Shown: in pieces, positions 3,560 through 58,883 of the stretch
Position numbering within the stretch: position 1 is the first letter of the stretch
Layout of the letters: the number at the start of each line of letters is the position of its first letter
Origin: Fluctibacter halophilus
GTDB lineage: Bacteria > Pseudomonadota > Gammaproteobacteria > Enterobacterales > Alteromonadaceae
Direction: 5' to 3'
NCBI RefSeq assembly: GCF_020687825.1
Contig: NZ_JAJEWP010000006.1
Coordinates: 186,001-250,000 of the forward strand
DNA: 64,000 nt
Translations under genes and position numbers: made by a program
Notes under the pieces: model-generated
Told to the model about the DNA's origin: nothing
The model's database searches: none
The model's input: the letters and a program-made list of their open reading frames with translations, nothing else

Positions 3560-5278
3560 ATGACCACCACCACTGATATAACGTTCCGCGATCTAGCATT
3601 GCCTGAACCCATTCTGCAAGCGCTGGAAAAAGTGGGGTATGAAAAGCCTTCGCCCATCCAGGCTGAAAGCATTCCGCTGTTGTTAGAGGGGCATGACCTG
3701 CTTGGACAAGCGCAAACCGGTACGGGTAAAACCGCCGCCTTTGCATTGCCCATGCTGGCACAAATCAACAGCGAACAAACAACACCGCAACTACTGGTAC
3801 TGGCGCCTACCCGCGAACTGGCCATTCAGGTTGCGGAAGCCTTTCAGGTTTACGCCAGTTTTTCCAATAAAATCAAAGTTCTGCCTGTTTACGGCGGACA
3901 ATCCTATGACAACCAAATTCGCCAATTGAAACGGGGTGTTCAAGTGGTTGTCGGTACACCTGGCCGGGTGATTGACCACATCAAGCGCGGCACACTGAAG
4001 CTCGATCAGTTACGCTTCCTGGTGCTCGACGAGGCCGACGAAATGCTGCGCATGGGATTCATCGACGACGTCGAATGGATCCTCAGCCACGCGCCAGAGA
4101 CCCGTCAGACAGCGCTGTTTTCCGCCACCATGCCGGAGCCGATCCGTAAGATCACGCAACGTTACCTGAACGATCCAAAGCAGGTCAAAATCGCCGCTAA
4201 GGTTTCCACTGCCAGCACCATTCGCCAGCGTTACTGCCAGGTTGCCGGACACCACAAACTGGAAGCACTGACCCGTATTCTGGAAGTCGAGCCTTTTGAC
4301 GGTGTGATCATCTTCGTGCGTACCAAAACCGCCACCGTTGAACTGGCGGAGAAATTGTCTGCCCGCGGCTATGATGTGGAACCCCTCAATGGTGATATTC
4401 CACAACAAGCCCGTGAGCGCACGGTCGAACGCCTCAAAAAAGGCACCATCGATGTATTGGTCGCCACCGATGTTGTGGCGCGGGGTTTGGATGTTGAGCG
4501 GGTTAGTCACGTGATCAATTTTGACATTCCCTACGACACGGAATCCTACGTTCACCGTATCGGCCGAACCGGGCGAGCCGGCCGTCAGGGGGATGCCATT
4601 CTGTTCATCTCACACCGCGAAAAGCGCCTGTTGTTTGCGATTGAAAAGGCCACCAAGCAAAAGATCGATGTGATGCCAATCCCATCGGTGTCTGAGCTGA
4701 ACGAAAACCGCCTGACACGTTTCAAACAAAACGTGATCAATGCCCTGGAAGACGACAGCATCGAAAGCCTGATCCCGATTGTTGAATCAATTCAGCAGGA
4801 ATCGGAAGCGTCTCCTGAGAAAATCATGGCTGCGCTGGCCAAACTGGCGCAAGGTGACGAGCCACTGATCCTGAAAGAGAGTGACCGTCCGGATCTGACA
4901 GCCAAGCCACCGCGCCGTGAAAACGGTCCCCGTGACCGCAATGACCGAAATGACCGCGGTGGTCGGGATGATCGTAAGGGCAAAGGTCGACAACGGGGTA
5001 AGCCGGAAGCCGGCATGCAACGCTACCGTATTGAAGTGGGCCACAGTCATGGCGTCAAACCCGGCAATATCGTCGGTGCCATCGCCAACGAAGGGAACAT
5101 TGACAGCAAGCACATCGGCGCGATCGAAATCTTCGACCGTTTCAGCACCGTGGACTTGCCCCAGGGTATGCCGCCAGAAACCCGTGATGCATTGCAAAAA
5201 GCCCGTGTTTCCGGACAACGTCTGGGCCTGCGGGAGTGGCGCGACGAGCCACCAAAACGCAAAAAGCGTAAAGACTAA
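3560..5278 (+). CDS. deaD: DEAD-box ATP-dependent RNA helicase DeaD/CsdA
   Basis: This 572-aa helicase unwinds RNA duplexes during ribosome assembly and cold adaptation, judging from the family. The motifs appear in order: Q-motif region (residues ~5-40), AQTGTGKT (Walker A), PTRELA, TPGR, DEAD within VLDEADEML, SAT, and HRIGRTGR. After about residue 430 there is an Arg/Gly/Asp-rich linker (repeated RNDRNDR-like runs). It leads to a DbpA-type RNA-binding domain (RYRIEVGHSHGVKPGNIVGA) and a basic tail ending RKKRKD. The presence of that domain and the length favour DeaD over RhlE or SrmB. The gene stands alone with its own terminator. Confidence 0.93.
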   Translation: MTTTTDITFRDLALPEPILQALEKVGYEKPSPIQAESIPLLLEGHDLLGQAQTGTGKTAAFALPMLAQINSEQTTPQLLVLAPTRELAIQVAEAFQVYASFSNKIKVLPVYGGQSYDNQIRQLKRGVQVVVGTPGRVIDHIKRGTLKLDQLRFLVLDEADEMLRMGFIDDVEWILSHAPETRQTALFSATMPEPIRKITQRYLNDPKQVKIAAKVSTASTIRQRYCQVAGHHKLEALTRILEVEPFDGVIIFVRTKTATVELAEKLSARGYDVEPLNGDIPQQARERTVERLKKGTIDVLVATDVVARGLDVERVSHVINFDIPYDTESYVHRIGRTGRAGRQGDAILFISHREKRLLFAIEKATKQKIDVMPIPSVSELNENRLTRFKQNVINALEDDSIESLIPIVESIQQESEASPEKIMAALAKLAQGDEPLILKESDRPDLTAKPPRRENGPRDRNDRNDRGGRDDRKGKGRQRGKPEAGMQRYRIEVGHSHGVKPGNIVGAIANEGNIDSKHIGAIEIFDRFSTVDLPQGMPPETRDALQKARVSGQRLGLREWRDEPPKRKKRKD

Positions 5279-5283
5279 GTTTT

Positions 5284-5309
5284 AAAGGCGGCATTGACCG
5301 CCTTTTTTA
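5284..5309 (+). terminator. Intrinsic terminator of deaD
   Basis: The 8-bp stem AAAGGCGG/CCGCCTTT with a 6-nt loop is followed by a run of T residues, five bases after the deaD stop codon. Confidence 0.88.
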
Positions 5310-5399
5310 TTTCCTAATGGAATAAAATTTAACTTTTAAATTCTTTATTGAAATACTTGATTCAGGCAAACTGCGCACACTGAACAGAGAGTAGGCCCG

Positions 5400-6797
5400 A
5401 TGCGTTATTTCCCCTTATTTATCGATACCCAACACTTACACTGCCTGGTCGTCGGCGGTGGGGAAGTCGCTGCACGCAAACTGGAACTGCTCGCCAATAC
5501 TGAAGCCGCCATAACGGTGGTTACCCGGGAAGCCTGTCCGACGGTACAAAAAATGGCCGAGGAAGGACGCATTACCCTGCATCTTCGCCCATTTGAGGAC
5601 AGCGACATTGTCGCTGCGCGGGTGATCTTCGTGGCCACCAATGATGGCGAGCTCAACGGCCATATTCAATCCCTTGGGACCGCCGAGGGCGCGCTGGTCA
5701 ATGTGGTGGATGACGTTAAGCGCTGCAATTTCATTACGCCGTCAATTGTTAATCGTGGTCCGGTCACCATCGCCATGGCCAGCGGTGGCGTTGCACCGGT
5801 ACTGTTGCGCTACCTGCGTCAGAAGCTGGAAGCCTGGATCCCACAACGCATTGCGCGACTGGGCGAGTTTGCCGAGCGTTTCCGTGATCAGGTTAAAGGC
5901 CGCTTTAACACCGTGACCCAACGGCGTTACTTCTGGGAAGAAGTGTTCGATGGCCCAATTGCCGAAGCGATTTTGCAGGGCAACGATGCACAGGCGGAAC
6001 AAGCGATGCTGGACAAGCTGAACAGCGAGCGGCCCGAACAACCCGGCGAAGTGTATCTGGTCGGTGCCGGTCCGGGCGATCCGGAATTGCTGACCTTTCG
6101 TGCACTGCGCCTGATGCAAAAGGCCGATGTGGTTATCTACGACCGGCTGGTGTCCCCCGAAATTCTCGCCATGGTAAGACGTGACGCTGAGAAGCACTAC
6201 GTGGGCAAAGCCAAGAGTAACCATACCCTTCCACAACAGGACATCAACGCCTTACTGGTCAAAGAAGCCAAAGCCGGCAAACGGGTCGTACGGCTCAAAG
6301 GTGGCGATCCGTTTATTTTCGGCCGAGGTGGCGAAGAACTCGAAACCCTGGTTGAGCATCAGGTGCGTTTTCAGGTCGTGCCGGGGATCACCGCTGCCAG
6401 TGGCGCAGCGAGCTATGCCGGTATCCCATTGACCCACCGGGATCATGCCCAATCCGTAGTGTTTGCAACCGGTCATTTACGCGACAATTCCATCGACCTG
6501 GATTGGCCAGCGCTGGTACAAACCGGTCAAACCCTGGTGTTTTACATGGGCCTGACCGGCCTGCCGATCATCTGCGAACAATTGGTGAAGCATGGCATGT
6601 CGGCACAAACCCCGATCGCGATGATCGCCAATGCCACCACGGCGCAACAGCGCGTGGTTACCGGTAACTTAAACACCATCTGTGCGAAGGCCGAAGCGGC
6701 AAACATTCAACCTCCTGCATTGATTGTGATCGGTTCGGTGGTCAGCCTGCACGATTCACTCAACTGGTTTCACCCTGCACCAGAGGCCCTTGCTTAA
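5400..6797 (+). CDS. cysG: Siroheme synthase (trifunctional CysG)
   Basis: This 465-aa protein is a fusion. The N-terminal precorrin-2 dehydrogenase/ferrochelatase (residues ~1-210) has a Rossmann motif VVGGGEVAARK. The C-terminal uroporphyrinogen-III methyltransferase (~215-460) has VGAGPGDPELLT, VVIYDRLV and RLKGGDPFIFGRGGEE. Together they turn uroporphyrinogen III into siroheme for sulfite and nitrite reductases. The residues at the positions of E. coli CysG Asp104 and Ser128 (dehydrogenase/chelatase site) and Asp248 (methyltransferase) are conserved at identical numbering, so all three activities are expected. No assimilatory sulfur or nitrogen reductase gene is adjacent. Confidence 0.95.
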   Translation: MRYFPLFIDTQHLHCLVVGGGEVAARKLELLANTEAAITVVTREACPTVQKMAEEGRITLHLRPFEDSDIVAARVIFVATNDGELNGHIQSLGTAEGALVNVVDDVKRCNFITPSIVNRGPVTIAMASGGVAPVLLRYLRQKLEAWIPQRIARLGEFAERFRDQVKGRFNTVTQRRYFWEEVFDGPIAEAILQGNDAQAEQAMLDKLNSERPEQPGEVYLVGAGPGDPELLTFRALRLMQKADVVIYDRLVSPEILAMVRRDAEKHYVGKAKSNHTLPQQDINALLVKEAKAGKRVVRLKGGDPFIFGRGGEELETLVEHQVRFQVVPGITAASGAASYAGIPLTHRDHAQSVVFATGHLRDNSIDLDWPALVQTGQTLVFYMGLTGLPIICEQLVKHGMSAQTPIAMIANATTAQQRVVTGNLNTICAKAEAANIQPPALIVIGSVVSLHDSLNWFHPAPEALA

Positions 6798-20022: not shown

Positions 20023-21047
20023 TCATCACCTGTGAGGTCGACCAATCTTTCGAACATCAGATCCATCGAATGATCGGGAAACAACAACAATAGGTCAAAG
20101 TTAATGCCATGGCTCTTGATCGCATAGCCGATTTCAACCGCCATGATCTTACTCCAGCGCGACACATTGTTGCTCAGCAAGGCATCGACGTCACAGTGGC
20201 GGCCCAACACAATCGGGTGATTGTGGCTGAAATTGACGTGCAATTGGGTCGACAATGCATGCAGACAGGCACTGATCAGGATATTGGACACATCCAACAG
20301 GGCTTCCAGTTCCAGCTCTTCGGTGACTACGGTATTTTTATAATCCAGCAATTTGACCATATCGGCGAAGTTCGCATCATTGAAGATCAGCAGCGCTTCT
20401 CCCTTAATGCCGGCGCTGATAAAGCCCTGGGAAATTGCCGACACCTGTGCATTGCGCTGCACTTCTGCAATCGCCATATGCAGCTCGGTGGACTCAATCA
20501 GGTTAACGTTGGGGATCGGTAAATCGATAAACTCATCCAACAGCGTCGCCAGCTTTTCACCGGCCTGTCCCATGGCCACGTTGGCCATTTCGCGAAAAAT
20601 GTCGAGCTTCTCCGACATTGGACTGTCGATACTGACGACCTGCTGTTGCTCTTTTTCCCGTCGTGACGCACCTTGATCACCGGCATACAAACCGTATTGT
20701 TCGAGGATTTCCGACAGTTTCAGGTTATCAATCGGCTTGCGAATGAAATCCAGCGCACCCAGCTTCAGCATGCGCTCCCGGGCTTCGGGCTGAACATCGC
20801 CGGACACCACAATCACCATGGTCGGCAAATCCTGATCCTTGATCGCCTGCATCGTCTGGTAACCATCCATGACCGGCATGTTCAGATCCAGAAACATCAC
20901 GTCAGCTTTGCCCTGATGTATCTGTTCCAGCGCCATTTTGCCATTTTCAGCGAAGGAAATGTCGACATCCCAGCCATCTGGGATCGAACGCGCCATTTGC
21001 CGCCGTGCAAAACCGGAGTCATCGCAAATTAACACTGCCGTACTCAT
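20019..21047 (-). CDS. Response regulator fused to a CheC-type phosphatase domain
   Basis: In this 342-aa protein residues ~3-120 are a receiver domain with DD at 9-10, phosphoacceptor Asp54 (MFLDLNMPVMDG) and the K of RKP near 104. Residues ~145-340 are CheC/CheX-like. A full D-x3-E-x2-N-x22-P phosphatase motif starts at Asp149 (E153, N156, P179). A second copy has Glu248, Asp252, Asn255 and Pro278, with the usual catalytic Glu replaced by Asp. CheC proteins dephosphorylate CheY-like receivers. The translationally coupled PAS-GGDEF gene follows. No chemotaxis operon is nearby. Confidence 0.88.
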   Translation of the reverse strand: MSTAVLICDDSGFARRQMARSIPDGWDVDISFAENGKMALEQIHQGKADVMFLDLNMPVMDGYQTMQAIKDQDLPTMVIVVSGDVQPEARERMLKLGALDFIRKPIDNLKLSEILEQYGLYAGDQGASRREKEQQQVVSIDSPMSEKLDIFREMANVAMGQAGEKLATLLDEFIDLPIPNVNLIESTELHMAIAEVQRNAQVSAISQGFISAGIKGEALLIFNDANFADMVKLLDYKNTVVTEELELEALLDVSNILISACLHALSTQLHVNFSHNHPIVLGRHCDVDALLSNNVSRWSKIMAVEIGYAIKSHGINFDLLLLFPDHSMDLMFERLVDLTGDE

Positions 21048-21118
21048 GTGGCGCCCGCACCCCTCGATTGATCACATTTTCGCCAAACCGGCGACATTTA
21101 ACCCTACAACCGTACTCT

Positions 21119-21392
21119 GTACAAGGCTAGAGCATAATTTAGGCATATGAAAGAGAAGACTTTTTTATTCCTATGCGAATTCCGGAAAGAGCATCACACC
21201 GAGAAAAGATGCTGTATGGCAGGGTGGTACTGATTCGCCTTTACACAGAAATCGTCAGACGATACTCGCGTCTCCAGATCCCGAAGCGGATTGATGTTCA
21301 GGCGCGGGGGTCACAGGGCGTGCGTTTACGTTGAACGTCACGCATCAATTCGAGCAGCTTCTGATAGATGTACGCAATGATAAAGGCTGATA
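21119..21392. repeat. Left copy of imperfect direct repeat (thyA 3' end plus downstream flank)
   Basis: This stretch matches 26639 to about 26927 in the same orientation. Shared landmarks are GTACAAGnCTnGAGCA at the outer edge (21119 and 26639), CAT(A/G)TGAAAGAG, the stop-codon region, GGATTGATGTTCAG and ACGTCACGCATCAA. Similarity continues at least 70 bp past the ThyA stop codon. The two copies delimit the bacteriocin island. Confidence 0.8.
21194..21392 (-). pseudogene. Decayed C-terminal fragment of thymidylate synthase (thyA remnant)
   Basis: Reading the minus strand gives AYIYQKLLELMRDVQRKRTP, then, after a frameshift, RLNINP, DLET, SSDDF, QYHPAIQH and FSV followed by TGA. These line up in order with residues ~213-283 of the intact ThyA encoded at 26711 ([42 protein letters not shown]). 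Relative to intact ThyA it has a frameshift near the CDPR region and loss of about four codons after INP. It begins about 30 bp beyond the exporter stop codon. It is most simply the displaced original 3' end of thyA after insertion of the island. Confidence 0.88.
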
Positions 21393-21422
21393 ATGATGAG
21401 TAGCCAATACTTCCCTGTATGA

Positions 21423-23591
21423 TCAACTTGCTGTCTTACAATCTTCGACGGTTAAGTTGACCAGAACACCATTTCTTAAACAATAAACCTGCTCTGCCAT
21501 GGCAATCGTTTCTTGCCGATGAGCGATCATAATGCGTGTCATCGGAAAATGTTGAATCTGTTCGCTGATCTTGGCTTCATTATCTTTATCTAAATGACTT
21601 GTGGCTTCATCCATGAATAGTACGCAAGGCGATCGATACAAAGCCCGGGCCAGTAATAATCGCTGCACTTGTCCACCGGATAGGTTTGAACCCATATCAC
21701 CTACCAATGAGTTATACCCCATCGTCATTTCAGTGATGTCATCATGAATGACGGCTAATTTGGCACAGTGTTCAATTTTCAGATAATTCGGCTGCGGGTC
21801 AAAAAAACTGATGTTATCGGCAATAGACCCCGCCAATAACGTATCATCTTGCATGACAGCAGCAATCTTTTGTCGATACATCTTCAGGCCAAGCTGAGTA
21901 ATATCTTTACCGTCGAGCGATACTTTGCCCGAGGTTGGCTGCAATAGACCCAACATAATTTTCATCAATGTCGTTTTACCCGCCCCGGAAGCCCCGGTAA
22001 TGGCGATTGACTCGCCAGCAGAAATTGTCAAGTTGACGTTATTTAGGATTGGCTTTTCTTGTTCAGAATAACGGAAGCAAATATTCTCCAGCTTGAGTTC
22101 ACCGGTATAACTATCAGATAAATTTTCATCGGCTAGATACATTGCCTCGCCTTCGCGATTTGCTTCTTGTTCAGATAATGCGATATCGGAAATACGATCG
22201 AGGTGTAAACGCATCATCCTAAACTGAATAATCTGCTCAATTAAATTGGTATAGCGTTCAGTAAGCTGCCCTTTGTACGCAATGAAGGCCAATACCATTC
22301 CAACCGTTAAACTATTTCCCATCACCATCACTGCGGCAAAATATATGACTAACACATTTTCTAACCCAAACAGCAGTTTGTTGAATGATTCAAAACTAAT
22401 ATCTAACCGGCCTAAACGGATTTCACTATTAATCACTTCAGCATAGCGATTTTGCCAGATGCCTTGACGTTGAGACTCATTGCCAAAGAGCTTTATCGAT
22501 TGAATACCGCGAATATTTTCCAAAAAGTAGGACTGCTCTTTGGCTGACGCCTGAATCATTTCTTCGGTTGCATGATGAAGAGGACGATACAATGCTAAGC
22601 GAACTAGCGTGTAGAGAACTATTGCACCCAGTACTACAGCCGTTAGTTTCAGAGAATACAGCGACATCATAACCAACACACTGATCGCCATAACACCATC
22701 GACCAGGGTTTCCACAAAGCCCGTCGTTATTCGTTCCCGAATGTGTGCCAACGAGCCGAATCGGGATACAATATCGCCAACATGTCGCGACTCAAAATAG
22801 TTCATTGGCAAGCGCAGTAAATGTCTGAGCAGGTTAATGCCCATTTGCATGTTGAGTAAGCTGGAAAGCCTTAGAATCAACCAGCTTCTTACCGCGTTAG
22901 TTACTACACTAATAATGGCAATGAGTGTAAATCCTATCGCCAATACTGTAAGCAATGGTTTGTCAAAGCTGACTAAAACTTCATCGACAACCCACTGCAT
23001 ATAGTACGGTGTCATCAATGCAAAGAGCTGTAGCACCAAAGACAGACCAATCAGTTTTACCAAGCCTGTTTTTAAGCCTGACATTGAAGACCACAGCTGG
23101 GTAAACTTCATTTTGGCTTTTTCTTCTTTGATTTCGAACTTACTCGTCGGCGTAAGCTCTAAACAGATTCCAGTGAAATGCTTACTAAACTCTTCTCTCG
23201 TAAAGCTGCGCTTACCAACTGCAGGATCGTTGACAAAATATTTGCCACCCTTTCCTTTACCGGAAACCTTGGTTAAAACAACAAAATGATTCATATCCCA
23301 ATGCAAAATACAGGGCGTTTGCAGTTTATGAACTTCATCAAGGGGACATTGTAAAGCACGGCTTGCCAGACCTAAGTTGTCACCCAGCTCAATTAGCTGT
23401 TGAAGATCCATACCCTTCAAATTTGCGGAATAGCGTTTGCGCATTGCAGGCATTTCGATTTGGTAACCATAGTAGCCTGCAATCATTGCTAAGGAAGCAA
23501 GGCCACACTCCGCCATTTCTGATTGCAAAATCAACGGAGTTACCGTGCTCACTGAGAAGTTTAATGAATGTTCTTTTATATCCGAAGTCAT
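21423..23591 (-). CDS. C39-peptidase ABC exporter of double-glycine bacteriocins (CvaB/LanT-like)
   Basis: This 722-aa protein is an inner-membrane exporter that cleaves leader peptides after GG and pumps the mature peptide out. An N-terminal C39 peptidase (residues ~15-145) has Cys in EMAECGLASLAMI, His in DMNHFVVL and Asp in VNDPAVG. The six-helix transmembrane domain (~165-445) is followed by an ABC ATPase (~485-715) with Walker A GASGAGKTT, signature LSGGQ and Walker B VLFMDEAT. All catalytic residues are present. Its ATG overlaps the stop of the small upstream gene (TAATG), so translation is coupled. It is the last gene of the island and visibly AT-rich compared with the flanks. Confidence 0.95.
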   Translation of the reverse strand: MTSDIKEHSLNFSVSTVTPLILQSEMAECGLASLAMIAGYYGYQIEMPAMRKRYSANLKGMDLQQLIELGDNLGLASRALQCPLDEVHKLQTPCILHWDMNHFVVLTKVSGKGKGGKYFVNDPAVGKRSFTREEFSKHFTGICLELTPTSKFEIKEEKAKMKFTQLWSSMSGLKTGLVKLIGLSLVLQLFALMTPYYMQWVVDEVLVSFDKPLLTVLAIGFTLIAIISVVTNAVRSWLILRLSSLLNMQMGINLLRHLLRLPMNYFESRHVGDIVSRFGSLAHIRERITTGFVETLVDGVMAISVLVMMSLYSLKLTAVVLGAIVLYTLVRLALYRPLHHATEEMIQASAKEQSYFLENIRGIQSIKLFGNESQRQGIWQNRYAEVINSEIRLGRLDISFESFNKLLFGLENVLVIYFAAVMVMGNSLTVGMVLAFIAYKGQLTERYTNLIEQIIQFRMMRLHLDRISDIALSEQEANREGEAMYLADENLSDSYTGELKLENICFRYSEQEKPILNNVNLTISAGESIAITGASGAGKTTLMKIMLGLLQPTSGKVSLDGKDITQLGLKMYRQKIAAVMQDDTLLAGSIADNISFFDPQPNYLKIEHCAKLAVIHDDITEMTMGYNSLVGDMGSNLSGGQVQRLLLARALYRSPCVLFMDEATSHLDKDNEAKISEQIQHFPMTRIMIAHRQETIAMAEQVYCLRNGVLVNLTVEDCKTAS

Positions 23592-23755
23592 TATGATGGA
23601 ACTACTAGAGCTATAAACCCAAACATTAGGAACATGTAAATCACAAACAACACTACTAACGTTTTAGACCGCAGTAGGGAAGATAAAAAGGCAAAGCTAA
23701 CTTCGTGTTGAGCTGCACTTCTCAACATATCTTTAGGACGTTTCATTTTCTTCAT
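23591..23755 (-). CDS. Small single-helix membrane protein, candidate immunity factor
   Basis: The product is about 54 aa from the ATG at 23755 (MKKMKRPKDM); starts at 23746 or 23728 are also possible. A basic, polar N-terminus is followed by one strong transmembrane helix (LVVLFVIYMFLMFGFIALVV) reaching the C-terminus. It overlaps the end of the upstream 75-aa gene and its stop overlaps the exporter start by one base. I do not recognise a family. Its place between bacteriocin and exporter genes and its size fit a bacteriocin immunity protein or an exporter accessory subunit, which is inference. Confidence 0.6.
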   Translation of the reverse strand: MKKMKRPKDMLRSAAQHEVSFAFLSSLLRSKTLVVLFVIYMFLMFGFIALVVPS

Positions 23756-23960
23756 TATTAACACGCAACCTTCTTCTAAAAGCGTTTCCAAAAATACTTT
23801 CACCCCTAATTAGCTGAACTAGAACATATATATTAAATGCAATTAGTAATAAGAAAATGCTGACAGAAAAAACGCCTAACGAACCATGCGTAATAGCTAA
23901 GGTTAAAGATAGTTTTAGAGCAGAAAATGAAAACAGAGGTATCAGGAGTGCTTTAATCAT
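23733..23960 (-). CDS. Small two-helix membrane protein, candidate immunity factor
   Basis: This 75-aa protein has two predicted transmembrane helices (residues ~4-24 and ~30-52), then a basic stretch FRRRLRV and an acidic tail. The ATG overlaps the stop of the CPBP gene (ATGA, 23957-23960), so it is translated in a coupled chain CPBP, this gene, the 54-aa protein, the exporter. No family was recognised. Small hydrophobic proteins in such positions are often self-immunity proteins, but nothing in the sequence proves it. Confidence 0.65.
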   Translation of the reverse strand: MIKALLIPLFSFSALKLSLTLAITHGSLGVFSVSIFLLLIAFNIYVLVQLIRGESIFGNAFRRRLRVNNEENETS

Positions 23961-24418
23961 ATCACCAACATCAAGAAGAATATAAATATCACATTATTAG
24001 AGGCATGAACAATTGTTGGCGATAAAATTGAATCGCTCTGTATTCTTAGCACACCTAAAATCCAACCTAAAACAAATAGCATTATGGGGACCAGCAAATT
24101 ACCGCTATAATGCAACACAGCCCAAAGGGCAGACGAAACAGTCAAAACCAATATCATTTTTAAGGCGCTTAATAGCTTAAAAAGTAGATATCTAAAAATG
24201 AACTCTTCAACCAATGGTCCGATCAGGCCAATAAAAATCAGGCTCCACCATACGCCATACTGGTTAAGCACATTTTTACTGCTAGTTACCTCTGAACTGA
24301 GATAGTCGGTATTCAGGTAAAGAAAATATAGAGTAATTAAGTATATAGAAAATAGAACGTACGCCTTATTCGAAGAAAAAATTAAAAGACGTCTTAATTT
24401 TTCCGAATCCATATTCAT
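23957..24418 (-). CDS. CPBP-family intramembrane protease (Abi/CAAX type)
   Basis: This 153-aa protein has four or five transmembrane helices and carries the CPBP motifs: EEFIFRYLLF (motif 1, the Glu-Glu pair and Arg), an HYSG-type motif 2 (LHYSGNLLVP) and HASNN (motif 3). CPBP proteins are frequent in bacteriocin loci, where they contribute to immunity or peptide processing. It follows the two bacteriocin genes across an intrinsic terminator and heads the coupled chain of small genes leading to the exporter. It is shorter than typical housekeeping CPBP proteases. Immunity is more likely than leader cleavage, since the exporter has its own peptidase. Confidence 0.8.
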   Translation of the reverse strand: MNMDSEKLRRLLIFSSNKAYVLFSIYLITLYFLYLNTDYLSSEVTSSKNVLNQYGVWWSLIFIGLIGPLVEEFIFRYLLFKLLSALKMILVLTVSSALWAVLHYSGNLLVPIMLFVLGWILGVLRIQSDSILSPTIVHASNNVIFIFFLMLVI

Positions 24419-24471
24419 GTATACATCCGCACCAGAAAAATACCGTTCAATTTACAACGTGGTATTGAAAA

Positions 24472-24496
24472 AAGGCGGCCAAGACAACCGCCTTAT
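24472..24496 (-). terminator. Intrinsic terminator between bacteriocin genes and immunity/export genes
   Basis: On the minus strand a 7-bp stem AAGGCGG/CCGCCTT with a 9-nt loop is followed by TTTTTTC. It lies 14 bp after the stop of the second peptide gene. Read-through would be needed for the downstream genes unless they have their own promoter, giving higher expression of the peptides. Confidence 0.8.
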
Positions 24497-24508
24497 AGGG
24501 TTCGACCA

Positions 24509-24670
24509 TTACAGTCTGTTTGTAGCAGCTCTCATGCTATCTGAATTGTGGCTTGCGCCACTCCAGTTTAAAGAACTCATGGTGTTGTAAGCGCCAACGG
24601 CTCGATTGGCCAACCAACCCCAAAAACCGCCTTGAACTGCTTTGATTTCTTTACTTGATAGTTCTCTCAT
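24509..24670 (-). CDS. Double-glycine bacteriocin (microcin-like) precursor, peptide A
   Basis: This 53-aa peptide is too short for routine gene calling. It starts with the leader MRELSSKEIKAVQGG, a typical double-glycine leader of the form M-R-x-L-x-x-x-E-[IL]-x-x-V-x-GG, as in microcin V-type precursors. The predicted 38-residue core begins FWGWLANRAV and ends RAATNRL. It has three tryptophans, many small and polar residues, net positive charge and no cysteine. A Shine-Dalgarno AAGGAG lies eight bases before the ATG and overlaps the stop of the sister gene, so the two are translated together. The C39 exporter encoded downstream would cleave after GG. The product looks new to me, but no database search was possible. 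Confidence 0.88.
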   Translation of the reverse strand: MRELSSKEIKAVQGGFWGWLANRAVGAYNTMSSLNWSGASHNSDSMRAATNRL

Positions 24671-24682
24671 CTTGACAGCTCC

Positions 24683-24823
24683 TTAAGGTTTCATGCTTTT
24701 TGCGAATTTGTACCAGCCATAAATGCTTGCAGCGTTGCCCGCTAGGTGGATGGCCAGGGCAACTCCAATTGGAATTACACCACCATTGACTTGCTTAATT
24801 TCATTCACGCTCAATTCACGCAT
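24683..24823 (-). CDS. Double-glycine bacteriocin (microcin-like) precursor, peptide B
   Basis: This 46-aa peptide has the leader MRELSVNEIKQVNGG, which shares 10 of 15 positions with the leader of the neighbouring peptide. The predicted 31-residue core begins VIPIGVALAIHLAG and ends FAKSMKP. It is markedly hydrophobic, with small-residue spacing (AGNAAS) like the helix-packing motifs of two-peptide bacteriocins, and has a basic C-terminus. A GGAGT Shine-Dalgarno precedes the ATG at 24823; an in-frame ATG 15 bases upstream is less likely because it overlaps that site. The cores of the two peptides are unrelated, which fits a two-component bacteriocin, though two independent toxins are also possible. 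Confidence 0.87.
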   Translation of the reverse strand: MRELSVNEIKQVNGGVIPIGVALAIHLAGNAASIYGWYKFAKSMKP

Positions 24824-24842
24824 AATGTTATACTCCATGTAT

Positions 24843-24994
24843 CCAACGACACGAGTGTGGTTGGGTATCTAAATTTCTCAATCTCGTAAGAGAATGAGGG
24901 TTTACTAAGGCTGGCTTTCGTTTTGCTCGCTAAAGTTGACGTGAGCCAGCCGCACTTTTCTGACAAAGCCTCTTCCGACGAAGTGCTTTGCCAG
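24843..24994. promoter_or_regulatory. Structured leader upstream of the bacteriocin peptide genes
   Basis: The 190-bp spacer between the HlyD gene and the first peptide gene holds three inverted repeats. At 24843-24864 CCAAC/GTTGG arms enclose an ACAC/GTGT stem. At 24909-24916 and 24944-24951 there are perfect 8-bp GGCTGGCT/AGCCAGCC arms 27 nt apart. At 24960-24969 and 24985-24994, 10-bp arms match at nine positions. None is followed by a clear T-run. They could be attenuators, mRNA stabilisers or operator sites that raise peptide expression over the adaptor gene. Confidence 0.5.
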
Positions 24995-25012
24995 AAAATC
25001 ACTTTAAATCTA

Positions 25013-26269
25013 TTAGCTTACGCGCCCCTTCAGGCTATATATGGGCTCAAGCAGCCATTCAATGAGCGTTCGTTGCTCTAACATAATATCCGCCTCAAAC
25101 AGCATGCCGCTTTTTAATTCAAACTCTTGCCCGTATGCTTGTATTTTCTGTTGGGCTAATTTTGCCCGTAAGCGATATACGGCTTCCTGGAATGGAATCG
25201 GTAACTGTACTTCGTTTGGTGTGATTAGTGCCCGGTCGATACGTACAATTTCACTTTCAATAAAGCCAAAACGTTGATAGGGAAAAGCATCAAAACGCAG
25301 ACGCGATATTTGCCCCTTGGCGATAAAACCAGCACTTCGGGTGGGTAAAAGTAGCTCTGCCACCAGCTCAGAGCCTTCAGGCAAAATATGAAGCAGCGGC
25401 TTAGATTGAGCCTTTGAAGGTGAAAGCGTTTCCCCCTCGACCACTTGAATACCCGTGACCGTGCCTGCATGACTAGCAGCTATCGTGTAGCGATGGCTGT
25501 TCTGAACTTGAGCCAGTTGATTTTCAATAGCCGACTTTTCACGCAACAAGCTATTAATGCGTAATGTATATTGTTGAGGTAAGTTTGCTTTATCAAAAAC
25601 GGCTTGGTTAATCTGATTGTTTTGCTGTAACAGTAAACGAGCAATGTTTTGTTTTTCCTGCTGCGCTTCTAATAAAGATTTCTTTTGATTTTCTTTCTCA
25701 TATTTTGAAACATACCCGCTGCTATTTAACCGCTCAACATCTTCTTGTTGTGCCAATAATAGCGCCAGCTTTTCGTTAGCAAGAATCAATTGCCTTTCCA
25801 AGGCTAACTTTTCGCTATTTAATGCTATTACTTTGTTTTCGAGGTTCCTGTTTTCTTCAACTTGAATTGTTTTATATTGTTTTATTTCTTCATCAATCAG
25901 CGCTAGTTGTGAGATCAGCTCACCTTGCAACTTACCACTTAAGCTTTTGCCATCCGCGCTATTTTTATGAACTACCATGGTTGCTAAGGGCTGACCCTTT
26001 TCGACTTTATCGCCCTCACTTACAAATAAACTATCTACCGTACCACCTTGAGTCGCAAAGCTTTTTATGACGCCTCCATTAGGCATTAAAAAGCCGCGAA
26101 CCGTCTCTTTTCGAGAATATTCTGCATTAATTAAGAATGCGACTATGGCAATAGCAATAGCCGCTACAATCGAAACAGTTAGCTTAATAGATAGTGGCTG
26201 TGCAAGAATAATAGCACCAGTCAAGCGCTCACTTTGATGGGAAACAGCTTCCTTTCTGAACAACGACAT
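25013..26269 (-). CDS. HlyD-family periplasmic adaptor for bacteriocin secretion (CvaA-like)
   Basis: This 418-aa protein has a short cytoplasmic N-terminus (MSLFRKEAVSHQSERLTGAI, typical of CvaA-type adaptors) and one transmembrane helix (~residues 30-48). A lipoyl-like half motif (~60-95) is followed by a long coiled coil (~105-250, rich in Glu, Gln, Leu and Lys) and a beta-barrel C-terminal region. It would link the C39 ABC exporter to an outer-membrane TolC channel not encoded here. It is the first gene of the island operon on the minus strand, immediately upstream of the two bacteriocin peptides, unlike many systems in which the adaptor sits next to the exporter. Confidence 0.9.
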   Translation of the reverse strand: MSLFRKEAVSHQSERLTGAIILAQPLSIKLTVSIVAAIAIAIVAFLINAEYSRKETVRGFLMPNGGVIKSFATQGGTVDSLFVSEGDKVEKGQPLATMVVHKNSADGKSLSGKLQGELISQLALIDEEIKQYKTIQVEENRNLENKVIALNSEKLALERQLILANEKLALLLAQQEDVERLNSSGYVSKYEKENQKKSLLEAQQEKQNIARLLLQQNNQINQAVFDKANLPQQYTLRINSLLREKSAIENQLAQVQNSHRYTIAASHAGTVTGIQVVEGETLSPSKAQSKPLLHILPEGSELVAELLLPTRSAGFIAKGQISRLRFDAFPYQRFGFIESEIVRIDRALITPNEVQLPIPFQEAVYRLRAKLAQQKIQAYGQEFELKSGMLFEADIMLEQRTLIEWLLEPIYSLKGRVS

Positions 26270-26710
26270 AACAACCCCTCAACCTCAGGGTCATATTAAT
26301 TCCCATATAATATCGGAGTCAACCGAGTTTACTATAAATTGTTAGGTCAAATTTAATACCCATCCTATTCTTCCCAGCAAAAATCAGCACCCCATTAATT
26401 TATATACATTTTATTGGATTGCTGCATACCTTGAGTTTGTACTGTTCTCACACATCAACCGGCTAATTATCGTTCAACAATGTGTATGTAAATCCCTCTT
26501 GATACACATCGCACTGCATTGCGGCAGATGTGTTATTCGGATGGTTGATAAAACCCGGACACGCTTCAACGCATTCATCAGGTTTTGTCAGCGGTTGCTT
26601 GGAGTGACGAGTGATATGCAACCTCACGCTACCGATGGGTACAAGTCTGGAGCACAAAAAGACATGTGAAAGAGGTGTTTTTTATACCACCAATGACATT
26701 GCGCGTTTGA
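26270..26710. other. AT-rich gap upstream of the bacteriocin operon, with a doubtful 64-codon ORF
   Basis: The 441-bp stretch between the HlyD start and the thyA stop is expected to hold the operon promoter. On the minus strand a TTGACT element (complement of 26320-26325) is followed after 17 bp by TTAATA, a mediocre -10. A 64-codon open frame at 26463-26657 starts with TTG without a Shine-Dalgarno. Another frame (MSFCAPDLYPSVA) starts just upstream at a better ATG but soon stops. I see no recognisable protein. The part from 26639 upward belongs to the thyA direct repeat. Confidence 0.4.
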
Positions 26711-56222: not shown

Positions 56223-57107
56223 ATGTCAGGGTGTTGTCCAGTGGTACGATGGTTGTTATTGATGGTGTTTGTCGTCGTTGGCAGTGCTGCTTATGCTGAC
56301 AATGGGCTGCGCACGGTCTACTACCCGGTGCCGTCCAACCTGGAAGACAAGCGCAGTCAGTACCCCGAAGAACTGCTGTCACTGTTATTGACTCAACAGC
56401 AAGGGTTTAAACCGCAAGCGGTTTATTTTACCCACACCCAGGACAGGGCATTGCGCTTGCTGGAAAAGCAACAACTCGATGTAATGTGGAGCGGTGTGGA
56501 TGACACTCGCCTGCAACGTTTTAGGGCCATTCGCTATCCACTGACCAAAGGTCTGTTGGGCTACCGATTACTGATGGTGAACCGTGGCTCTGCGCTGGCA
56601 ACCGGCAAGGCGTTCGATTTGACTAACCTGCGCTTCGGTCAGGGTGCCGGATGGCCAGACACACACATTCTGCGCCACAACGGCCTTACGGTGATCACCG
56701 CCACCACTTATCAGGGATTGTTTTCAATGCTGGCTGCCCAGCGCTTCGATGCCTTTCCCCGCGCAGTGTCTGAAGTCTGGCTGGAATTGAATGCGCCAGG
56801 TAACCAACGCTTCACGGTCAACGATAGCGTGGCGTTGTACTACCCATACGCCTTGTTTTTCTACGTCCGCAAGGATGATGAGGAACTGGCTGACGCGTTG
56901 CAGCAGGGATTTGAGCGGATCATCGCCTCCGGCGCGTTTGAAAAAGCCTTTCACCACTGGCACGGTGAAGATCTGTTACGGGCGAACCTGTCGGGACGGC
57001 AACTGCTGATGCTGGACAATCCATCTTTTCAAATTGCGCCCCATGAGCGGGAACGTTATCTGTTGCCTAACCATCTCACCGGCACCACCCAGCCTTTAAC
57101 CCCTTAA
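56223..57107 (+). CDS. Periplasmic solute-binding-like protein (SBP_bac_3 type)
   Basis: The product is 294 aa from the ATG at 56223, which puts a signal peptide (VVRWLLLMVFVVVGSAAYA) at the N-terminus; the frame is open to 56166. The body resembles type-3 extracellular solute-binding folds (LRTVYYPVP near the start, LEKQQLDVMWSGVDDTR, LTKGLLGYRLLMVN, ALFFYVRKDDEELADALQQGFERII). No transporter permease is adjacent and no second domain is present. It may be an orphan sensor or a diverged family member. It overlaps the convergent folA by 4 bp. Confidence 0.78.
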   Translation: MSGCCPVVRWLLLMVFVVVGSAAYADNGLRTVYYPVPSNLEDKRSQYPEELLSLLLTQQQGFKPQAVYFTHTQDRALRLLEKQQLDVMWSGVDDTRLQRFRAIRYPLTKGLLGYRLLMVNRGSALATGKAFDLTNLRFGQGAGWPDTHILRHNGLTVITATTYQGLFSMLAAQRFDAFPRAVSEVWLELNAPGNQRFTVNDSVALYYPYALFFYVRKDDEELADALQQGFERIIASGAFEKAFHHWHGEDLLRANLSGRQLLMLDNPSFQIAPHERERYLLPNHLTGTTQPLTP

Positions 57108-57595
57108 CGCTGACGCTCAAGGGTTTCAAAGCGGTAGGCGTAAGGGTTTTTGTCATCCGCCTCGTGGTGTTCCTGCTCGACACAGGCCCATGTCGCCACA
57201 GCCTGATAGTCTGGGAAGTGGGTATCACCGTCCACATCAAGGGCAATGTGGGTCAGGTACAGTCTGTCCGCCCGGGGTAGCAGCGCGGCATAGATTGCAC
57301 CACCACCAATGATCATGACTTCGTCTTCATTAGCGACCAATGTCAGGGCGGTATCGATGTCATTTACCACTTCGGCATCGGCCAGGGTGTAGCTGCTATC
57401 GCGACTGATCACCACATTCCGTCGGCCAGGTAACGCACGGCCAATCGATTCGTAGGTCTTGCGCCCCATCAGCACAGGCTTTCCCAGGGTAACACGTTTA
57501 AAATGGGCCAGATCTGCCGGCATGTGCCAGGGCATGTCATTGTCTTTACCAATCACTCGTCCACGAGCCATGGCTGCGATCATTGAGAGTTTCAT
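57104..57595 (-). CDS. folA: Dihydrofolate reductase
   Basis: This 163-aa enzyme reduces dihydrofolate to tetrahydrofolate. Motifs are MIAAMARGRVIGKDNDMPWH (catalytic Asp in the DMPWHMPAD region), LMGRKTYESIGRALPGR and MIIGGGAIYAALLP. It complements the ThyA-type thymidylate synthase encoded at 26.7 kb, which produces dihydrofolate. The start at 57595 has no clear Shine-Dalgarno. Confidence 0.95.
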   Translation of the reverse strand: MKLSMIAAMARGRVIGKDNDMPWHMPADLAHFKRVTLGKPVLMGRKTYESIGRALPGRRNVVISRDSSYTLADAEVVNDIDTALTLVANEDEVMIIGGGAIYAALLPRADRLYLTHIALDVDGDTHFPDYQAVATWACVEQEHHEADDKNPYAYRFETLERQR

Positions 57596-57685
57596 CGGAG
57601 ATTACTGCACCGTAAGTCGTTCGTGGCCTGCAACGCTAATCAAAGCGGCCTCACAACGCAAGCATCGCGGGGCAATCAGCATAAA

Positions 57686-57710
57686 AAAAGCCGGTAAAAC
57701 CGGCTTTTCG

Positions 57711-57711
<1 letters not shown>
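57686..57711 (-). terminator. Terminator of obgE
   Basis: The stem AAAAGCCGGT/ACCGGCTTTT has a short loop and a run of seven T on the minus strand. It overlaps the very end of the obgE coding region. Confidence 0.85.

Positions 57712-58883
<1,172 letters not shown>

Follow-up and report, generated by a model that had tools for sequence, protein, structure and literature searches.

Two adjacent genes for short double-glycine (GG) precursors, P1 and P2, lie on the minus strand of the DNA analyzed here (the window, that is, the whole 64 kb stretch, with coordinates counted from its first letter). Judged from their sequences, P1 and P2 are real genes, because pairs in the same order are present in relatives and purifying selection acts on the core of each. 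Together they probably specify one unmodified two-peptide bacteriocin (a probability of about 0.6), for which export would be provided by a C39/HlyD/TolC path and protection by the small membrane protein I1, with I2 or a CPBP protein.

Table 1. Features of the P1-P2 group in the window, in minus-strand order.
Feature	Position	Strand	Evidence or remark
HlyD-type membrane-fusion protein, 418 aa	25013..26269	-	PF13437, 36.3 bits (cut-off 22.2); TIGR01843, 132 bits (below cut-off of 209)
5' hairpin CCAAC...GTTGG upstream of P1	24843..24864	-	3' arm ends 19 nt before P1 start codon
P1 ribosome-binding stretch TGGAGTATAACATT	24824..24837	-	shared with related loci whose cores are unrelated
P1, double-glycine precursor, 46 aa	24683..24823	-	TIGR03949, 30.7 bits (cut-off 21.5)
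P2, double-glycine precursor, 53 aa	24509..24670	-	open reading frame, leader, Shine-Dalgarno sequence
Intrinsic-terminator-like hairpin right after P2	24472..24494	-	10 pairs, then TTTT
CPBP (Rce1/Abi-like) membrane protein, 153 aa	23957..24418	-	PF02517, E 4.1e-18
I1, 75 aa, two TM-like segments	23733..23960	-	co-conserved with P1-P2; candidate immunity protein
I2, 54 aa from internal ATG, one TM-like segment	23591..23755	-	candidate accessory/immunity protein
Peptidase-C39 ABC transporter, 722 aa	21423..23591	-	PF03412, 3.1e-32; putative leader removal and export

The tandem precursor genes

The first-pass annotation had described two tiny minus-strand genes, each with its own Shine-Dalgarno sequence, and their coordinates, strand and lengths were all as claimed. 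It had also described near-identical double-glycine leaders in front of unrelated cores, which is evident from the sequences themselves: P1 consists of the leader MRELSVNEIKQVNGG and the core VIPIGVALAIHLAGNAASIYGWYKFAKSMKP, and P2 of the leader MRELSSKEIKAVQGG and the core FWGWLANRAVGAYNTMSSLNWSGASHNSDSMRAATNRL. The mature P1 core (31 aa; 3287.9 Da, average mass, unmodified) is hydrophobic with a basic end, and the mature P2 core (38 aa; 4201.6 Da, average mass, unmodified) contains three Trp, is polar and basic and has a net charge of +2, in agreement with the characters originally assigned to them. P1 starts at the second ATG in frame, five codons downstream of the start chosen by the ORF lister; the latter falls within the ATGGAGTATAACATT-ATG ribosome-binding stretch. 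P2 starts 12 nt downstream of the P1 stop, and the proposed overlap between that stop and the P2 Shine-Dalgarno sequence was found in the shared stretch TAAGGAG.

A scan of the 64 kb window for open reading frames with both a leader and a Shine-Dalgarno sequence returned P1 and P2 and nothing else. As a null, first-order Markov sequences matched in length (n=300) yielded a mean of 0.37 such ORFs per sequence (maximum 3) and one tandem pair in the whole set. The view that these are genuine double-glycine precursors is upheld.

Homologous pairs in relatives

Ortholog pairs in the same order were found at five loci: the window, G625 (locus L263), G013 (L037), G459 and Shewanella benthica KT99 (L092). 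The tandem pair is thus co-conserved in S. benthica and three family members, and the nearest relatives are Alteromonadales, as expected for the Gram-negative, Alteromonadales-type host that had been proposed. Transporter homologs were present at E <= 1e-100 in 25 of 59 genomes (own genome included). The named C39 loci are the best 80 of at least 560 listed, and leader scans of these and their flanks gave pairs clearly homologous to P1-P2 in G013 and S. benthica KT99. More distant pairs were seen in Algicola sagamiensis (L083), where P2 scored 109 bits and P1 was weak (31 bits, with a C-terminal likeness by eye), and in an Alteromonadaceae MAG (L116).

A P1 profile built from the window, L037, L092 and L094 matched 40 of 345 family genomes at E <= 1e-4. 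Four of these (G000, G625, G013 and G459) fell below 1e-20, and the remaining 36 were at 1e-10 or weaker. G000 and G013 were themselves members of the profile and G625 and G459 were independent of it; G459 and G013 belong to one genus. In both independent finds P2 directly follows P1 and I1 lies further on. A P2 profile searched on 340 family genomes gave G020, G013, G459 and G000 below 1e-20 and G625 at 3.6e-7, with G020, G013 and G000, and not G459, among the profile members. In an evenly drawn sample of the order (394 genomes), P1, P2 and I1 matched the own genome alone below 1e-10, so the cassette appears to be rare. No match to P1 or P2 was obtained by tblastn against plasmid records at E 1.

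A strong P1 (over 80 bits) is present in six loci, and in five of them P2 lies 10-27 nt behind it. The exception is L094 (Shewanella sp. MBTL60), in which the P1 homolog has no P2 homolog within the 384 nt after it. Conversely, L070 (Colwellia demingiae) has a P2-like gene with no P1 beside it.

Purifying selection on the cores

Synonymous (pS) and nonsynonymous (pN) change was compared by Fisher tests on the cores alone. Proportions are given in place of ratios, because of saturation at many synonymous sites and non-independence of the pairs. Purifying selection, whose absence had been named beforehand as a refuting result, was found in both cores, synonymous change exceeding nonsynonymous change. 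For P1, pS was 0.78 and pN 0.13 between the window and G625 (16/20 synonymous and 9/70 nonsynonymous sites; p 3e-8), and 20/21 synonymous against 17/69 nonsynonymous sites differed between the window and S. benthica. For P2, the values were 0.90 and 0.37 between the window and G625 (19/21 and 28/75 sites; p 1e-5) and 0.18 and 0.01 between G013 and G459 (5/28 and 1/101 sites; p 0.002). Fisher p was below 0.05 in 18 of 20 pairwise core tests, which are not independent; the exceptions were P1 of G013/G459 (p 0.23), which are too similar, and P2 of G625/S. benthica (p 0.066). Across the cassette, w between G013 and G459 was 0.76 for I1, 0.26 for P1, 0.10 for P2 and 0.18 for CPBP, each from few changes, which makes I1 (82% identity) the least constrained cassette gene in this comparison.

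Peptide features and predicted structure

The P1 core carries a ladder of small residues at every fourth position (G5-A9-A13-A17-G21), a register shared by S. benthica, and its hydropathy is TM-like (17-residue mean 1.73). No TM-like segment was found in the window P2 core and no strict GxxxG in either window core; the GxxxG-like pairs of P2 are S18-S22, A24-S28 and S30-A34. The P2 peptides of G013 and S. benthica contain A8xxxG12xxxG16, and neither this motif nor GxxxG was found in P2 of G625. AlphaFold models are mainly helical, at low-to-moderate confidence, over residues 16-43 of P1 (mean pLDDT 78) and 6-40 of P2 (mean pLDDT 67).

The class IIb model TIGR03949 (lactobin A/cerein 7B) is passed by P1 in four of five scored orthologs, a match that rests partly on the leader. 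Its cut-off was missed by P1 of G013 and by the Algicola P1-like peptide, and was reached by none of six scored P2 and P2-like peptides. Window P1, P2 and I2 had no match in Pfam; S. benthica P1 scored 18.2 against Bacteriocin_IIc, below the cut-off of 27.1. Matches to solved structures (antibody, nanobody, superoxide dismutase) were set aside as chance (E 0.19 or worse).

Gene neighborhood and immunity candidates

From 26.3 to 21.4 kb, the minus strand encodes the HlyD-type adaptor, P1, P2, the terminator-like hairpin, CPBP, I1, I2 and the C39 transporter, so that the C39 transporter expected beside the pair flanks the group at one end and the adaptor at the other. CPBP, I1, I2 and the terminator-like hairpin are absent from the first-pass annotation. 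CPBP and I1 overlap by 4 nt, I1 and I2 by 23 nt (if I2 uses its internal ATG; an alternative start is GTG 23803) and I2 and C39 by 1 nt; because of these overlaps, the four genes look co-translated. The GC content of the group (21000-26700) is 36-46%, against about 49-57% on the flanks, which suggests a foreign origin for the block. The group adjoins a thymidylate-synthase-like gene (named by eye). The genome contains two TolC-family ORFs, one of which shares the contig of the window and lies immediately before the window's first base. Scans of seven group proteins against Pfam and NCBIfam revealed neither a siderophore-attachment protein nor a sensor kinase or regulator. The genome has a second C39 ABC transporter (contig C13; L063 6441-9956; 43% identity), where the position of the adaptor is taken by an ORF and an uncharacterised 326-aa ORF (4857-5837) adjoins; a leader scan of that locus gave no GG-leader ORF nearby.

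I1 (67-76 aa) is present in all five ortholog loci, three of which seeded the first I1 profile and two of which (G625 and G459) were found by it, and both copies examined (window and G625) have two TM-like segments. I1 was searched in two samples, as distinct from the 345-genome family sample: in the 394 order genomes nothing outside the own genome fell below 1e-3, and among the 59 relatives two did, both of which carry P1-P2. Neither I1 (13.2 bits in Pfam, cut-off 25) nor I2 reached a Pfam or NCBIfam cut-off. A clear I2 is present in three of the five loci (window, G625 and S. benthica); G459 has a weak match (E 0.015), and none was found in the G013 locus. CPBP is present in the window, G013 and G459, and was not found in G625 or in the S. 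benthica sequence examined.

Immunity to sakacin 23K and to plantaricins EF and JK is reportedly conferred by CPBP/Abi proteins (PMC8538875), and a CAAX protease is associated with thermophilin 13 according to PMC10059821; in Caulobacter, the account in PMC5380434 has the neighboring CaaX protease as dispensable. As the main immunity protein, CPBP was downgraded on account of its absence from G625 and the S. benthica sequence examined. I1, in five of five loci against three of five for CPBP, is the better candidate, and the distribution of I1, I2 and CPBP across the loci, with the dispensability of the Caulobacter protease, places it first. I1 is therefore the best candidate for a putative immunity protein, with I2 a candidate accessory or immunity protein and CPBP a possible second immunity factor.

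Terminator-like site and 5' hairpin

Nine terminator-like sites were found in 21000-26700, against 4.9 expected, and the hairpin behind P2 was matched in stability by 3 of 30 shuffles. Similar hairpins lie 3' of P2 in four of six other pair loci; G013 and G459 do not support a post-P2 terminator as a universal feature. A sigma-70 scan gave 11 sites, with 13.6 expected by chance, and these were left unused. No Rfam family reached its gathering score on 24300-25100, and a match to Hsp90_CRE (score 23.8, gathering 50) was rejected.

Allowing two mismatches, the ribosome-binding stretch TGGAGTATAACATT precedes the first peptide in 15 of 81 sources, one of which is the window. The hairpin upstream of it has counterparts of the CCGAC...GTCGG type at the same place in relatives. 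A test set of 22 non-redundant upstream regions with TGGAGTATAACATT (up to four mismatches) and a leader was drawn from all loci gathered, regions at least 80% identical upstream having been removed. In 15 of these regions a perfect 5-bp stem has its end 16-22 nt upstream of the ATG, and seven have no such stem there, whereas resampling (n=200) gave a mean of 6.4 and a maximum of 11. The distance of the stem end peaks at 19 nt (12/22), and the arms covary with compensating changes: CCGAC/GTCGG, CCAAC/GTTGG (window), CTCGAC/GTCGAG and CCGATG/CATCGG. Hairpins of this kind, about 19 nt before the first GG peptide, are found in many Alteromonadales C39 loci, including the window, L068, L069, L072, L104, L115 and L257. 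These features are compatible with an mRNA-stabilizing hairpin, a regulatory hairpin or an operator in the DNA.

A movable cassette among C39 loci

In three loci (window, G013 and G459) HlyD and C39 enclose the cassette; in S. benthica the cassette comes after HlyD-C39. In G625, there is no C39 within the 16 kb examined and two C39 domains lie about 1.1 Mb away; a 33-residue C-terminal remnant of HlyD (L263 7928-8026) is found just upstream of P1-P2-I1-I2. The P1-P2 order and the 10-27 nt spacing are kept despite these changes of place.

A wider leader scan covered 81 C39 loci (the window and 80 relatives) and would miss atypical leaders such as that of Algicola P1. At least one GG-leader ORF was present in 51 of the 81 loci, a few of which (e.g., L105 and L140) look like chance; if the two-peptide reading is true, these loci would open up a large set of peptides. 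The clusters comprised 52 single, 17 double (window included), two triple (two copies of one contig) and one quadruple. L079 (4348-13727) and L080 (1756-7310) hold six to eight different GG-leader genes whose upstream regions and leaders are near-identical and whose cores are unrelated, as would be seen if the cores were exchanged behind a constant front part. Pseudoalteromonas sp. XMcav2-N (L108 11148-11658) has four near-identical tandem peptides of GG/GA type, with the core GGSVYGKVTKDGWEIGF... In C. demingiae, the related HlyD-peptide-C39 locus (L070 3377-10923) is flanked by an obg-like and a folA-like gene (both named by eye); in the window (57104-58880) these two genes adjoin with no insert.

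It is conceivable, at slightly less than even odds, that these loci represent an undescribed family of Gram-negative two-peptide bacteriocins, in which a movable P1-P2-I1-I2 cassette plugs into different C39/HlyD loci of marine Alteromonadales, within a wider C39 set that shares the 5' hairpin, ribosome-binding stretch and leader before changing, sometimes paired, cores.

A probable two-peptide bacteriocin and the alternatives

The two-peptide reading is favored by the adjacent genes with their own ribosome-binding sites, the terminator-like hairpin, the C39/HlyD neighbors, the conserved order and the constant presence of I1. In the proposed mechanism, the C39 domain would cut after the GG, and peptides of ~31 and ~38 residues would be exported by the ABC part together with the adaptor and a TolC. 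The transmembrane helix of P1 would pack through its small-residue ladder against the helix of P2, and the pair would cross the outer membrane of close relatives by a receptor and then permeabilize the inner membrane. I1, with I2 and/or CPBP, would shield the producer.

Other observations weigh against a joint role: the window P2 has neither GxxxG nor a TM-like segment and fails TIGR03949, I2 is clear in three of five loci, single GG clusters outnumber pairs (52 to 17), and L094 and L070 are unpaired. The predominance of single clusters in related C39 loci, the P1 of L094 that lacks a P2 homolog and the lone P2-like gene of L070 would also suit two independent one-peptide class II bacteriocins with a shared operon and exporter; two small membrane proteins also match two peptides in number, so that I1 and I2 (or CPBP) could be one immunity protein each. 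This arrangement is nevertheless unlikely, given that P2 follows a strong P1 at 10-27 nt in five of six loci despite cassette moves and transporter loss, and given the class IIb features on P1.

It is quite improbable that the peptides are self-directed, in the manner of the gonococcal nap island. There, according to PMC11798529, peptides with GG motifs encoded beside a C39 peptidase in a low-GC island promote stationary-phase autolysis, have no antibacterial activity and leave competitors alive. The complete C39-HlyD pair and the constant small membrane partners speak against such a role here, and the rare, patchy distribution suits antagonism better, although this is not decisive. Secreted pheromones, which are also exported by C39 transporters (as noted in PMC6363468), are a very improbable alternative, in view of the immunity-like membrane partners and of a scan of seven group proteins that gave no sensor kinase or regulator.

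Comparison with known systems

Among the titles and abstracts listed in searches of the open-access literature, none dealt with a two-peptide GG bacteriocin in Alteromonadales, which does not prove its absence. The available portion of a study of Pseudoalteromonas isolates (PMC10456417) reports no GG pair in that genus, and in the text of PMC9746304 covered by a word search, two-peptide, Shewanella and Pseudoalteromonas are unmentioned. The only Gram-negative two-peptide bacteriocin with demonstrated killing met in the literature searched is the Cdz system of Caulobacter (glycine-zipper, contact-dependent).

With the class II microcins of Enterobacteriaceae (MccV and others), the group shares the GG leader and the genes for a C39 ABC transporter, a membrane-fusion protein and TolC, and its candidate immunity genes are adjacent, as the microcin immunity gene is. 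These microcins are single peptides of ~5-10 kDa, according to PMC10233263, whereas P1 and P2 have predicted masses of 3.3 and 4.2 kDa, and the seven window proteins scanned included no siderophore-attachment protein. The Neisseria nap island, as presented in PMC11798529, likewise combines cationic GG peptides, low GC and a C39 peptidase, but has three peptides, a FapF-type partner and autolysis in place of antagonism.

Cdz (CdzC/CdzD/CdzI) is similar in having two small GG-type peptides, a Gram-negative host, type I secretion, a small transmembrane immunity protein (CdzI; here the candidate I1) and a CaaX-type protease nearby (dispensable in Caulobacter). However, the CdzC and CdzD precursors are 86 and 84 aa, against window cores of 31 and 38 aa, and the mature Cdz peptides are surface-bound, contain extended glycine zippers and are composed to 75% of glycine and small hydrophobic residues. 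The window pair was not filed as Cdz because its cores contain no glycine zipper; their G/A/V/I content is 48% (P1) and 26% (P2).

The Gram-positive class IIb bacteriocins (lactococcin G, plantaricins EF and JK; the lactobin A/cerein 7B family) share with P1-P2 the two adjacent GG-leader genes, the short predicted-helical peptides and membrane-bound immunity proteins (candidates in the window), including those of CPBP/Abi type (as covered in PMC8538875 and PMC10059821), and P1 passes TIGR03949. The window pair differs in its Gram-negative host and HlyD/TolC export path (genes only), in the lack of a strict GxxxG in its cores, in the failure of P2 to reach the family model and in the scores of I1 and I2, which are below family cut-offs. 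At the level of sequence, P1-P2 resemble class IIb more than they resemble Cdz, and they are provisionally termed class IIb-like, since of the points that define class IIb, joint action at about 1:1 is a prediction here and the window P2 carries GxxxG-like pairs in place of a strict motif. If the reading is true, such a short, class IIb-like pair, accompanied by a defined membrane partner, would offer a tractable example of how a two-helix pore-former crosses an outer membrane.
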